Shown here: piece after piece, positions 999 to 6,253 of the stretch
Layout: each line of letters opens with the position of its first letter
Numbering within the stretch: position 1 is the first letter of the stretch
Assembly (NCBI GenBank): GCA_005883255.1
Contig: VAXS01000206.1
Span: forward strand, 1-12,673
DNA from: Actinomycetota bacterium
GTDB taxonomy: Bacteria > Actinomycetota > Thermoleophilia > Solirubrobacterales > Solirubrobacteraceae
DNA length: 12,673 nt
Direction: 5' to 3'
The notes under the pieces: generated by a model
Seen by the model: only the letters and a program-made list of their open reading frames with translations
What the model was told of the DNA's origin: nothing
Databases searched by the model: none
Program-made: the position numbers and the translations under genes

Positions 999-2051
999 AT
1001 GCAAACGCTCGTCGGCACCCTCCTGAACGGCCGTTACCGGCTGGACGCCCAGATCGGGGCGGGCGGCATGTCGACGGTGTATCGGGCGTTCGACACCACG
1101 CTGGAGCGCCCGGTGGCCATCAAGCTGCTGCACCGGGAGATCGCCGACGACGGCAGCCAGATCGAGCGCTTCCGCCGCGAGGCCCGGGCGGTGGCCCAGC
1201 TCTCCCATCCGCACATCGTCACGGTCATCGACGCGGGCGAAGACGACAGCCGCCCGTACATCGTCTTCGAGCACGTCGAGGGCGAGACCCTGAAGACGCG
1301 CATCAAGCGCATGGGCCGGCTGCCGATCGACGAGGCGGTGGCGTACGCGATCGAGATCGCGCGGGCCCTGGAGTGCGCCCACCAGAACCAGATCGTCCAC
1401 CGCGACGTCAAGCCCCAGAACGTGCTGATCGACGCCGAGGGCCGGGCCAAGGTCACCGACTTCGGCATCGCCCACTCGCTGGACCAGGAGGGATTGACCG
1501 CCGACGGCCGGGTGCTGGGCACCACCGACTACGTCTCGCCCGAGCAGGCGCTGGGGCACCCGGTCACCGGCCAGTCCGACGTCTACTCGCTGGGGATCGT
1601 GCTGTGGGAGATGCTGACCGGCGAGGTCCCGTTCAAGGGCGAGAACCAGGTGGCGGTGGCGATGAAGCACGTGCGCGAGGCGCTGCCCGACGTGCAGGCG
1701 CGCCGCCCGGAGGTCTCCTCCTCGCTGGCCGCGGTCATCGACCGGGCCACGGCCAAGCACCTGGAGCGCCGCTACGCGAGCGTCCACGAGCTGATCGCCG
1801 ACCTCGAGGACGTGCTGGCGCTGGAGACGGCGCGGGCCGGGGGCTCCACCGGCGAGGCCACGAGCGTCATCCGCACCATCTCCCCCCGCGCGCGCCGGCG
1901 GCTGCCGTTCCGGATGCGCCATCCGGGCTGGCTGGCGCTGATCGGGCTGGTGGCGGTGGGCGCCGCCGCGGCGGTGATCGTGGCGGCCAGCCGGCAGACC
2001 CACAGCGGGACCGGCACCGTGGGCGCCGCCACGCGGTCGACCGCGACATGA
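999..2051 (+). CDS. Membrane-anchored Ser/Thr protein kinase, ectodomain lost by frameshift
   Basis: 350 residues. A complete Hanks-type kinase domain spans about residues 13-270: glycine loop GAGGMSTV (20-27), VAIK lysine K42, helix-C E61, HRDVKPQN (134-141, catalytic D136), DFG (154-156), TTDYVSPEQ (about 175-183) and SDVYSLGIVLWE (193-204). A basic linker (about 297-308) leads to one membrane helix (about 309-330, WLALIGLVAV...AAAAVIVAA). The kinase domain is therefore cytoplasmic and only about 20 residues follow the helix. The frame ends at TGA 2049-2051, in the middle of what is recognisably a discoidin-like domain encoded in another frame (next entry). The ATG at 999 is chosen because the kinase starts at once with the usual VGTLLNGRYRL; no Shine-Dalgarno sequence is seen. 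The kinase should still be active; signal sensing is probably lost or altered. The substrate is unknown. Confidence 0.9.
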   Translation: MQTLVGTLLNGRYRLDAQIGAGGMSTVYRAFDTTLERPVAIKLLHREIADDGSQIERFRREARAVAQLSHPHIVTVIDAGEDDSRPYIVFEHVEGETLKTRIKRMGRLPIDEAVAYAIEIARALECAHQNQIVHRDVKPQNVLIDAEGRAKVTDFGIAHSLDQEGLTADGRVLGTTDYVSPEQALGHPVTGQSDVYSLGIVLWEMLTGEVPFKGENQVAVAMKHVREALPDVQARRPEVSSSLAAVIDRATAKHLERRYASVHELIADLEDVLALETARAGGSTGEATSVIRTISPRARRRLPFRMRHPGWLALIGLVAVGAAAAVIVAASRQTHSGTGTVGAATRSTAT

Positions 2052-2377
2052 GCACGTTCTGGAGCACCGAGACCTACCGCGGCGGCCTGGACAAGCCCGG
2101 CGTCGGGATCTACGTCGACGCCAACCCGGGCGTGACGGCGCGGGCGCTGGAGGTGCGCACGCCCGACCCCGGCTGGACGGCGGGGATCTACGCCGCCGAC
2201 CAGCCGTCGAAGGACATCACCGGCTGGAAGCTGGTCAGCCCGGCCCGCACCGTGACCGAGAACGTCCAGCGCTATCAGCTGGACACGGGCGGCCACGCCT
2301 ACCGCTACTACCTGGTGTGGATCACCAAGGTGGTCGCGGGCCAGGCGAAGGTGGCCGAGATCTACCTGTTCAAGTAG
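2048..2377 (+). CDS. Discoidin-like ectodomain fragment of the preceding kinase, in another frame
   Basis: 109 codons from ATG 2048 to TAG 2375-2377. The protein reads MSTFWSTETYRGGLDKPGVG, then YVDANPGVTARALEVRTPDPGW, and ends YRYYLVWITKV...VAEIYLFK. This is the beta-sandwich of the discoidin (F5/8 type C-like) domains found after the membrane helix in actinobacterial kinases. The frame is open upstream of the ATG and there gives AVDRD directly before MSTFW, matching the usual 'VDGD..T.W.TE.Y' start, so the domain originally continued upstream. The ATG overlaps the kinase stop as ATGA, so the piece could be made by termination-reinitiation, but it would have no signal peptide or membrane helix and would stay in the cytoplasm. 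A broken tail of one gene is the simpler reading. Its last 8 nt overlap the end of the convergent cyclase gene. Confidence 0.7.
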   Translation: MSTFWSTETYRGGLDKPGVGIYVDANPGVTARALEVRTPDPGWTAGIYAADQPSKDITGWKLVSPARTVTENVQRYQLDTGGHAYRYYLVWITKVVAGQAKVAEIYLFK

Positions 2378-3506
2378 CGGACGGCTCGTCGCCGTCGCGG
2401 CGGGCCCGGAAGAGCTTCACCGGCTCGCGGATGCCCTTGAGCTTGCGCTCGCCCGCGAACGACCAGCGGTAGCCGTCGTCCGCCGCCTCCCGCACGGACT
2501 CGTCGACCAGCACGCTGCCCGGCCGCGCCACGCCGGTGAGCCGGCTGGCCAGGTTGACGGTGTGGCCGTACCAGTCGCCGGCGCGGTTGATCGCCGGCCC
2601 GGCGGCGGCACCGGCGCGCAGCTGGGGGAAGTCCTCGCCCTCGCGGTCGGCCGCGTCCACCAGGTCGAGCGTCACGTCCAGCAGCGGCTCAACCTCGGAC
2701 GAGACCAGCATCACCGCGTCGCCGATCGTCTTGACCAGCCGCACCGGTGGCTGCGCCAGGTCGCCGGCCAGCTCGGCCAGCCGGCCGGCCACTCGCCCCA
2801 CCTCGTCCGCGGGGCGCCTCTCGCCCAGCCGCGTGAACCCGACCAGGTCGGCGAACGCCACGCCCACCTCCCGCGCGCCGGCCAGACCTCGCTGCCCCGC
2901 CGCGAGCTCGGCGCGCGAGATCACGTCCGAGCGGATCTGGTCGAGCAGGTGCGCGGTGAGCGCGTCGCCCAGCAGCGGGGTCAGCTCACCCTCGACCGTC
3001 TGTGCGAAGCCGGCCAGGCCCAGCGCCAGGTCCCGCTCGCTGGCCGCCTCGGGAAGCACGACGTCCTCGACCAGGCCGCGCATCGATTCGGCCAGTCGCG
3101 CCACCGACTGCCCGATGACCCGGGACACCTCCACCAGGCCCTCCTCGGGCAGCCCGGCGTCCCGGAACAGGCGGATCCGGCGGGCCGTCTCCAGCGCGCT
3201 CCGGTCCAGCACCCGCGCCTCGGGGTCCTGGATCGGCAGTCCGAACGCCTGCCGGATGCGCAGGTAGAAGTCCAGGTCCAGTCCCGACTGCTCGGCCACC
3301 TCGACCGCCGAGTGGCGGTCGTCGCTGGCCAGCACGCGCTCCACCGGCAGCAGCGCCAGCCGATCCTCGGCCACCGCCTGGCGCAGCTCGTCGAGCGGCA
3401 CGCCGTCCGCGTGCAGCTGCTCGAGCAGCTCCAGGCGCGCGCTGCGCTCGCCGTCGTCCTCGATCCCGTCCAGCAGGCCCTCGGCCTCGAAGTCGACCTC
3501 GGACAT
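2370..3506 (-). CDS. Class III adenylate cyclase with pH-sensor-type regulatory domain
   Basis: 378 residues. Residues about 20-195 form an alpha-helical N-terminal domain resembling the regulatory domain of Mycobacterium tuberculosis Rv1264, a cyclase inhibited by this domain at neutral pH and activated by acid. The catalytic domain (about 210-370) has the full residue set: metal aspartates D220 (AFADLVGFTR) and D263 (KTIGDAVML), adenine-selecting K259 and D311 (GDWYG), and transition-state N318 and R322 (VNLASRL). It should make cAMP from ATP as a homodimer in the cytoplasm; no membrane segment is seen. It is the last gene of the - strand unit. Its ATG overlaps the ddl stop by one base (TGATG), so translation is probably coupled. 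Its 3' end overlaps the convergent kinase tail by 8 nt. Whether pH sensing is kept cannot be read from the sequence. Confidence 0.9.
   Translation of the reverse strand: MSEVDFEAEGLLDGIEDDGERSARLELLEQLHADGVPLDELRQAVAEDRLALLPVERVLASDDRHSAVEVAEQSGLDLDFYLRIRQAFGLPIQDPEARVLDRSALETARRIRLFRDAGLPEEGLVEVSRVIGQSVARLAESMRGLVEDVVLPEAASERDLALGLAGFAQTVEGELTPLLGDALTAHLLDQIRSDVISRAELAAGQRGLAGAREVGVAFADLVGFTRLGERRPADEVGRVAGRLAELAGDLAQPPVRLVKTIGDAVMLVSSEVEPLLDVTLDLVDAADREGEDFPQLRAGAAAGPAINRAGDWYGHTVNLASRLTGVARPGSVLVDESVREAADDGYRWSFAGERKLKGIREPVKLFRARRDGDEPSAT
2380..2396. terminator. Hairpin just after the kinase tail stop
   Basis: GACGGC (2380-2385) and GCCGTC (2391-2396) form a 6-bp stem with a TCGTC loop, 3 nt after the TAG of the + strand kinase tail and inside the last codons of the convergent cyclase gene. 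There is no T tract. It could help end transcripts from either side; it is weak evidence in such GC-rich DNA. Confidence 0.25.
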
Positions 3507-4489
3507 CAGTGCCGGTAGGCGCGCTCGCGCCGGTGGCGTTCGATCCCGTAGCCCACCAGCCGCTCCAGCAGCTCGTCGTAGGGGACGCCGGAGGCCTCGA
3601 ACAGGCGGCCGAAGACGCTGGTCTCGGTGAAGCCGGGGATGGTGTTGAGCTCGTTGACCTGCACGTCAGCGCCGTCCACGAAGAAGTCCACCCGCGCCAG
3701 CCCGCTGGCCCCCACCAGCCGGAACGTCGCCACCGCCAGCTCGCGCACCCGCTCCCGGACCTCCTCCCAGATCCGCGCCGGCACCACCAGGTCCATGCCG
3801 CCGGCCGTGTACTTCGCCTCGTAGTCGTACCAGTCGCCGTGCAGCACGATCTCGCCGGGCTGGGAGGCCACCGGCTCGCGGTCGCCCATCACCGAGCACT
3901 CGACCTCCAGCCCGGCGGCCTGCGCCTCCACGATCGCCCGCGAGTCGTGGGCCAGCGCGGCGTCGACGGCGGCGGCCAGCTCCTGCGGCGTCGTCGCCTT
4001 CCCGATGCCCACGGAGGAGCCCAGCGCCACCGGCTTGACGAACACCGGCAGGCCCAGCGCCGCCAGCTCGGCCAGCGCGCCCTCGCGGTCCGCGTTCCAG
4101 CGGTCGTCGCGGACCCCCGCGTGGTCCACCTGGGGCAGCCCCGCCTCGGCCATCAGCTGCTTGAACACGAGCTTGTCCATGCTCAGCGCCGAGGCCAGCA
4201 CCCCGGCCCCCACGTAGGGCACGTCGAGGCACTCCAGCAGGCCCTGGACCGTGCCGTCCTCGCCATAGGGGCCGTGCAGCGCCGGAAACGCGGCGTCGGC
4301 GTCCAGCAGCCCGCCGCCCGCCCGCAGCGTGAGCTCCGCTCCGTCGCGGCGCCACGTCCCATCCCGCTCGATCCGCACGTCCAGCACCTCGTGGCCGCGG
4401 CGCCGCAGGCCCTCGCGCACGGACGCGGCCGAGGCCAGCGACACGTCGTGCTCGGAGGAGCGGCCTCCGCCGAGGACCGCGATCCTCAC
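3506..4489 (-). CDS. ddl: D-alanine--D-alanine ligase
   Basis: 327 residues from GTG 4489. It joins two D-Ala using ATP to make the dipeptide end of the peptidoglycan stem. ATP-grasp motifs are complete: SSEHDVSL (11-18, with the D-Ala-binding glutamate E13), LHGPYGEDGT (71-80), MDK (104-106), KP (152-153), GSSVG (157-161), the omega-loop YDYEAKY (221-227), R266, and metal ligands D268, E280, N282 in VDFF and NELNTIPGFT. The tyrosine at 221 is the residue type found in D-Ala-D-Ala enzymes rather than D-Ala-D-Lac ligases. The GTG start gives the normal family beginning RIAVLGGG. It overlaps the intended pknB stop as GTGA. Because of the pknB frameshift, the ddl frame is open far upstream and joins the kinase, so ddl may be made alone from 4489, as a kinase fusion, or both. 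The GTG has only a weak Shine-Dalgarno sequence. Confidence 0.93.
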   Translation of the reverse strand: MRIAVLGGGRSSEHDVSLASAASVREGLRRRGHEVLDVRIERDGTWRRDGAELTLRAGGGLLDADAAFPALHGPYGEDGTVQGLLECLDVPYVGAGVLASALSMDKLVFKQLMAEAGLPQVDHAGVRDDRWNADREGALAELAALGLPVFVKPVALGSSVGIGKATTPQELAAAVDAALAHDSRAIVEAQAAGLEVECSVMGDREPVASQPGEIVLHGDWYDYEAKYTAGGMDLVVPARIWEEVRERVRELAVATFRLVGASGLARVDFFVDGADVQVNELNTIPGFTETSVFGRLFEASGVPYDELLERLVGYGIERHRRERAYRH

Positions 4490-6253
4490 GGCGTCGCGGT
4501 CCCGGGGGTGGCCGCTCCAGGCGCCACGGTGGGCGCCGGCGTCGTGAGAGTGGTCGCCTGGCCGACCACGATGGTCACCCGCGAACCCTGCTTGGCCTTC
4601 GAGCCACCGGTCGGGCGCTGCGAGATGACCTTCCCGTTCTGGGTGGGATCGGTGACCGTCTGCTTCTGCGTGGTGACCGAGAAGCCCGCCCCGCTGAGTG
4701 CCCGATATCTCCGCGGTGGCCGCGCTCTCGCTCTGGCCGGTGACGTCGGGCACGGCCACCTGCGCCGGCCCGGACGACAGGAACAGGGTCACGCTGGACT
4801 TGAGCTGGGACAGAGAGCCGCCCGGCGGCGAGGTGCGGGTCGCGCGGCCCCGGTCGATGGTGTCCGAGGGCTCCTGCTGGGTGATCACGGCGAAGCCCGC
4901 CCGCTGAAGCGCCTTGCGCGCCTGCCCTCCGGGGAGGTTGGTGACGTCGGGGACGGGCGCGTCGCCCGGCCCGTCCGACACGGTCAGCGTGACCGTCGAG
5001 CCCTCGTCCACCTTGGCGCCGGGCTGCGGGTCCTCGCGCAAGACGCGATCGCGCGGCGCGTCGTTGGTCACCCGCTGGACGTCGACCGCGAAGCCCTTGT
5101 TGTGCAGCTGCGCCGCGGCGGTGCTCAGCTGGCCTCCCACCACGTCGGGCACCGCCACCTGGGTGGCGCCCCGGGTGAGGAAGAACGCCAGCAGGCCCCC
5201 GGCGATCAGCAGCAACGCGATGCCGGCCAGGATCGCCATCACACGCCGGCGACGGCGTTGGCGGTCCTCCTCGGGCTCGGGCGGCAGGGGGCCCGCGGGA
5301 TAGAGGGCGCCCAGCTCGTCGTCGGGCGGAGGCGGCGGAGGGGCGCCGGCCAGCGCGGTGGGACCGGTGGGCTCGTCGGGGATGGCACCGAAGGCCGCGG
5401 TGGACTGCCCCGCCGGGACCGCCACCAGGCGCCCGCGCAGCTGCTCCAGCGCCGCCGCCATGTCGCCGGCGTCGGCGAAGCGCCGCGCGGGGTCCTTCTC
5501 CAGCGCGCGCAGGACGATGGCGTCCAGCTCGGGCGGGATCGCCGGGTTGTAGGCGCTGGGCGGGACCGGCAGCTCCGACACCTGCTTGAGCGCGATCGTC
5601 ACGGGGCTGTCCCCGTCGAACGGCACGCGCCCGGTGAGCAGCTCGTACAGGACGATCCCGATCGCGTACAGGTCCGCCTGGGCGCTGACCGCGTGCCCCT
5701 GGGCCTGCTCGGGCGACAGGTACTGCGCGGTACCCATGATCGACCCGGTCTCGGTCATGTCCGAGGCTCCGGCGCGGGCGATCCCGAAGTCCGTCACCTT
5801 CACCCGGCCCTCGTCGTCCACGATCACGTTGTGCGGCTTGATGTCGCGGTGGATCACGCCCCGCTGGTGCGCGAAGCGGGCGGCGCGCAGGATCTGCACC
5901 ACGATGTCGATCGCCCGCTCGGGCGCCAGCGGACCCTCCTCCTGGACCAGCTGCTTGAGCGAGCGGCCCTCCAGGTACTCCATCGCGATGTAGTAGGTGC
6001 CGTCGAACTCGCCCCGGTCGTAGACGCCCACCACGTTGGGGTGCTGGAGGCCGGCGGCGGCCGAGGCCTCGCGCTTGAAGCGCTCGACGAACTGCGCGTC
6101 CTCCGCGAAGCGGCGGTACAGGAGCTTGAGCGCCACCTTGCGGCCCAGCTGGAGGTCCTGCGCGCAGTACACGTCCGCCATTCCCCCCGAGCCCAGCCGG
6201 GACAGGATCGAGTAGCGGCCGTCCACCACCGTGCCGGCGTCGAGGTCCCTCAC
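4486..6253 (-). CDS. pknB: PASTA-domain Ser/Thr kinase PknB, frameshifted in the third PASTA repeat
   Basis: Starts at GTG 6253, overlapping the PBP stop as GTGA, with GGAGG 10 nt upstream. Kinase domain about 12-272: GSGGMADV (21-28), K43, E62, HRDIKPHN (135-142, D137), DFG (155-157), an activation loop with T167, T169 and S171 before GTAQYLSPEQ, and ADLYAIGIVLYE. A proline-rich linker (about 278-330), a basic patch and one membrane helix (338-360) follow. Outside are PASTA 1 (about 365-428) and PASTA 2 (about 431-495). PASTA 3 begins at VAVPDV (499) but leaves frame after AATAEISG. In the other frame the repeat resumes as AGFSVTTQKQTV and runs through VISQRPTGGS, SRVTIVV and a Thr/Pro tail to TGA 4486-4488. 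Removing 10 nt (4692-4701) restores the usual 17-residue spacing from VPDV to AGF and a 585-residue protein. PknB senses muropeptides or lipid II in relatives and phosphorylates wall enzymes and FHA proteins. Confidence 0.88.
4692..4701 (-). other. Apparent 10-nt insertion (frameshift) in PASTA 3 of pknB
   Basis: On the coding strand GCACTCAGCG interrupts what would otherwise read GAG ATA TCG GGG GCG GGC TTC (Glu-Ile-Ser-Gly-Ala-Gly-Phe). Taking these 10 bases out gives a third PASTA repeat with the same 17-residue spacing from VPDV to the AGF/KGF phenylalanine as repeats 1 and 2. A one-base excess would also restore the frame but leaves the repeat three residues too long. The exact borders are ambiguous by a few bases because of flanking G runs. 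It may be a real mutation or an assembly error. Confidence 0.6.

Follow-up and report, generated by a model that had tools for sequence, protein, structure and literature searches.

An apparent PASTA kinase–Ddl fused frame in a draft genome as a probable assembly artefact

The locus and its apparent fused frame

The window, by which we mean the whole 12,673-nucleotide stretch of DNA that was analysed, is an entire contig from a draft genome that totals 1.89 Mb over 288 contigs and is 72.4% complete. Related proteins bear names that put it near Solirubrobacteraceae. Pfam matches on its minus strand identified a run of genes coding for FhaA-like and FHA proteins, a PP2C phosphatase, an FtsW/RodA protein, a PBP, a PASTA kinase, a D-Ala-D-Ala ligase (Ddl) and a cyclase-like protein. 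The last of these (2370-3506, minus strand) lies directly after ddl and is similar to adenylate/guanylate cyclases, with an adenylate cyclase regulatory domain. The features relevant to this work are collected in Table 1.

An earlier note on this DNA had described a kinase frame that runs without a stop from GTG 6253 through two full PASTA repeats and some 70 non-PASTA residues into Ddl, and this description was confirmed. The open frame extends from GTG 6253 to a stop at 3506-3508 and comprises 915 codons, with a computed mass of 97.2 kDa for the product (35.1 kDa for Ddl alone). Pfam analysis of the frame returned a Ser/Thr kinase domain (PF00069, E 3.3e-51), two PASTA stretches and the N and C domains of Ddl, with PF01820 and PF07478 matching over the 327-aa ligase product. 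The kinase domain contains HRDIK at residue 135 and DFG at residue 155, which we take to be its catalytic motifs. The strongest hydrophobic segment of the frame (residues 341-359, score 2.72; the next best, at 1.71, lies inside Ddl) is found between the kinase domain and the PASTA repeats, and the order of a transmembrane segment followed by two whole PASTA repeats is that of PknB-type kinases. The translation departs from the PASTA pattern after residue 517, at about position 4703, and 71 off-pattern residues are then crossed before Ddl is entered in frame. A further piece of PASTA sequence can be read in another frame, with no internal stop, as far as the GTGA overlap with ddl. The earlier note had recognised this tail and its end at the ddl start, and that part stands; its assignment of the tail to the third repeat does not, since the tail belongs to the fourth (see below).

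Table 1 Features of the window discussed in the text
Feature	Position	Strand	Remark
Second Ser/Thr kinase, frame-broken near 2020-2050	999..2377	+	about 100 nt missing relative to a 99%-identical protein
Apparent fused frame: kinase, transmembrane segment, two whole PASTA repeats, 71 off-frame residues, Ddl	3506..6253	-	
PASTA repeat 1, whole	4973..5158	-	51.4 bits
PASTA repeat 2, whole	4775..4954	-	48.3 bits
Junction of PASTA 3 head and PASTA 4 tail, out of frame	4680..4720	-	some 190 nt present in the same-genus relative absent
PASTA repeat 4 tail, in another frame, to the GTGA overlap with ddl	4561..4701	-	38.7 bits
ddl, D-Ala-D-Ala ligase, 327 aa from its own GTG (start 4489)	3506..4489	-	

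The junction compared with close relatives

Alignment of the kinase with an orthologue, a check that the earlier note had proposed, was carried out using a genome of the same genus (G001), the kinase of which has four PASTA units. The window follows the third unit of the G001 locus (L034) down to window position 4700, matching L034 5931, while window positions 4698-4561 match L034 5741-5604 in the fourth unit. About 190 nt of G001, or roughly one PASTA unit, are skipped by the window between repeats 3 and 4, with a change of frame. Judged from this alignment, what had been read as a third PASTA repeat combines the beginning of repeat 3 with the end of repeat 4, the two parts lying in different frames. 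A frame scan with a codon-usage model trained on the window's own genome located the switch at 4707; the old frame has no stop within 75 nt of this position. A small indel was rejected as the cause because the skipped stretch is some 190 nt long and lies between two PASTA units of the same-genus locus; bases were lost relative to this genome, and the extra bases suspected earlier at the break found no support.

The fused frame was used as a query against 5.8 billion proteins; scoring was limited to the 7999 candidates with the most words in common with it, and the top 120 were listed. One of these, P0002 (598 aa, seven member sequences), shares 515 of the 517 residues before the junction with the window, completes PASTA 3 past the junction point and begins PASTA 4. 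In repeat 4 it ceases to follow the PASTA pattern, falling short of its ten best relatives by a median of 62.5 residues; a contig end, an error of its own or real variation may account for this irregularity, which makes P0002 a somewhat weaker control for the gene's end. Irregularity of the PASTA 3-4 region was observed in two records, the window and the near-identical P0002. The nearest Ddl, P0242 (nine member sequences), is 95% identical and is a separate 327-aa protein. As would be expected of an assembly artefact, a near-identical sequence elsewhere is free of the lesion, P0002 having a complete repeat 3, with the caveat that the P0002 protein is itself irregular in repeat 4.

Thirty relatives were fetched, 29 of which have both genes on the stretch obtained (the contig of G010 ends before ddl, and that of G028 starts within the kinase gene). 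In all 29 the kinase stops by itself near the start of ddl, with a four-base overlap in 17, a one-base overlap in five and a gap in seven. A survey of 201 genomes gave a Ddl match in 192; among the best 30 of these 192 loci, one was the window's own and the other 29 were unfused, with five genomes common to both sets. A natural fusion conserved in relatives was looked for and not found: none of the 53 distinct other genomes examined (the 29 relatives and 24 further genomes) has a kinase–Ddl fusion. Nor is the kinase whole up to Ddl in the window, where a median of 128 residues at the C-terminal ends of the relatives' kinases is unmatched. The relative G016 was observed to have a ddl split over two frames (L049 2640-3585).

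The entry of the shifted frame into ddl, which had been considered an unusual weld, proved to be unremarkable. In 15 of the 29 relatives no stop interrupts the ddl frame over 218 nt or more upstream of ddl, and the reading of the weld as a remarkable event was rejected on this basis. As the kinase frame is fixed relative to the overlapping ddl and stops are few in G+C-rich DNA, a shift of the right sense near the end of the kinase gene would often lead into ddl.

Similar losses in the contig and the genome

The contig also has a broken second kinase gene, which lies on its plus strand. It is read in one frame from 999 to about 2040, while its C-terminal domain lies in another frame up to 2377. 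The stretch of G001 that matches it is a single open frame, and P0122 (493 aa, 14 member sequences) is a whole protein 99% identical to it over 98% of the query. Comparison with the intact P0122 shows that the window lacks about 100 nt in this second kinase.

The codon-usage scan was extended to 259.5 kb of readable bases, made up of the window and 40 sampled contigs, eight of which read as N throughout. Thirteen same-strand frame switches without a nearby stop were found in this sample, 11 of which were kept by eye; L147, in which the old frame reaches an ordinary stop further on, and L151, which lies beside a short run of N, were set aside. The same scan returned one switch in 212 kb of G001 and three in 135.6 kb from G012, a relative assembled into about 440 contigs. 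The window's genome has an excess of such lesions, with binomial p values of 0.008 for 11 versus 1, 0.003 for 13 versus 1 and 0.007 for 11 versus 3 pooled, the pooled test having kept the one switch of G001 and all three of G012, including L045 at the low-complexity end of a normal kinase. The second break of the window was missed by the scan because its old frame meets a stop nearby, and the switch counts are lower bounds in all three genomes.

Several of the switches fall within recognisable genes. A second Ddl-like gene (L190 1016-2549, contig C43) has an out-of-frame break that removes profile positions 54-106 (gap 53 to 107), a glutamate synthase gene (L180 4036-6436) has a frame switch with a profile gap from 104 to 140, and an Orn/Lys/Arg decarboxylase gene (L158 2797-4109) has a profile gap from 203 to 270, its downstream match scoring 22.7 bits, below the Pfam cut-off of 27. 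Five genes were profile-scanned as two pieces, and the second Ddl and the glutamate synthase matched on both sides of the switch, whereas L187, L191 and L179 matched downstream only. L154 gave two different genes, with the match to the first reaching profile position 284 of 310; the switches L183, L185 and L192 were located and left out of the profile scan. Out-of-frame losses in such genes at such density point to assembly rather than biology, and the draft genome should be flagged as carrying many of them.

On the strength of these comparisons the kinase–Ddl fused frame is very probably an assembly artefact. The gene in the cell would very probably be a pknB with four PASTA repeats, its own stop and a four-base overlap with ddl; Ddl would be made separately from its start at GTG 4489, and the draft genome would have dropped a stretch about one repeat long, out of frame, between PASTA 3 and PASTA 4. 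The artefact was among the readings offered at the outset, and it gains from the loss of about 190 nt relative to G001, the complete repeat 3 of P0002, the absence of fusions from all 53 other genomes, the second loss opposite an intact P0122 and the excess of similar lesions. Counting against it are the irregular repeat 4 of P0002 and the choice of 11 of the 13 switches by eye, and some real variation at the site may exist; that assembly and not mutation caused the loss is what we infer from the whole.

A genuine and very recent deletion between PASTA 3 and PASTA 4 would give the same sequence, with entry into the ddl frame by chance, Ddl made from its own GTG and the fused tail exported and idle. 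The junction does fall near matching positions of the two repeats, the lost frame shows no decay (38.7 bits and free of stops), as expected of a very recent event, and the irregularity of P0002 in repeat 4 suggests that the region may vary in nature. However, an in-register exchange between repeats would keep the frame, which here was not kept, and the same kind of loss is seen both in a second gene of the contig and in other conserved genes of the genome. We regard such a deletion as very unlikely.

Fused frames in databases and comparison with known systems

Proteins that combine a kinase with at least one Ddl domain make up 25 of the 120 matches listed, a sample that favours fused proteins since the query was itself fused. 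Nineteen of the 25 lose the kinase pattern at scattered points, 14-191 residues ahead of its end, and this scatter does not support phase variation. The other six (P0003, P0005, P0013, P0029, P0066 and P0114) have a kinase that is whole to within five residues of its end, and may be real fusions or the result of indels in the tail. P0066 was seen to carry PBP domains as well. By hand tally, fused rows account for 24 of the 57 non-JGI entries among the 120 listed versus one of the 63 JGI entries (Fisher p 1.7e-8), and the median longest contig is 123 kb for the 25 fused rows, including the single JGI one, and 8.6 kb for the 33 unfused non-JGI rows. The fused rows follow the data source, which might suit long-read assemblies with residual indels. 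The titles and abstracts of the literature searched contained no treatment of a PknB–Ddl fusion. With pknB in this order often overlapping ddl in a fixed frame (by four bases in 17 of 29 relatives), errors in pknB would readily yield kinase–Ddl "fusion proteins", by which the mining of fusions and domain architectures could be misled; the 25 listed matches look like a case of this.

Should some members of the order have a true end-to-end PknB–PASTA–Ddl protein and the PASTA 3-4 region vary in the window's species, Ddl might at times be exported behind a muropeptide-sensing ectodomain, a prospect to which we attach very little weight. ATP and D-alanine are cytoplasmic, and an exported Ddl would be without both. 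The PASTA domain is extracellular (PMC8528326), and with the strongest hydrophobic segment (341-359) placed between kinase and PASTA, both PASTA and Ddl would lie outside the membrane; a membrane-held, working Ddl was rejected on this topology. Of the outcomes offered earlier, an altered Ddl supply, a membrane-held product and an artefact, only the artefact is supported. If the fusion were real, working Ddl would need to be translated from its own GTG or supplied by the second ddl-like gene on C43, itself broken in the assembly. A functional PknB–PASTA–Ddl fusion, whether fixed or switchable, coupling wall sensing to the supply of precursors could appeal to the 25 two-part database proteins and to the six with a nearly whole kinase, but is scarcely credible against the early, scattered loss of the kinase pattern in the other 19, the dependence of fused rows on data source, the 53 unfused genomes and a Ddl held away from ATP and D-alanine.

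The locus, with its FHA proteins, PP2C phosphatase, FtsW/RodA protein, PBP and PASTA kinase, resembles the actinobacterial pstP locus (PMC6554272). The kinase shares with PknB, PrkC and StkP a kinase domain, a single transmembrane segment and PASTA repeats; unlike them, its last PASTA repeat is a junction of two repeats and its frame continues into ddl. Similarly, the ligase resembles known Ddl enzymes in that its 327-aa product starts at a GTG of its own and matches the two Ddl Pfam domains, but the stop between the kinase frame and Ddl is missing. There is a likeness too to the gene-breaking errors of draft assemblies, for example those treated in the Kastor paper (PMC12007338), where frameshifts make intact genes look broken. 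The long-read frameshifts and premature stops described there differ from the losses in the window, which span about 100-200 nt and in which the overlap of two genes produces a fused frame.
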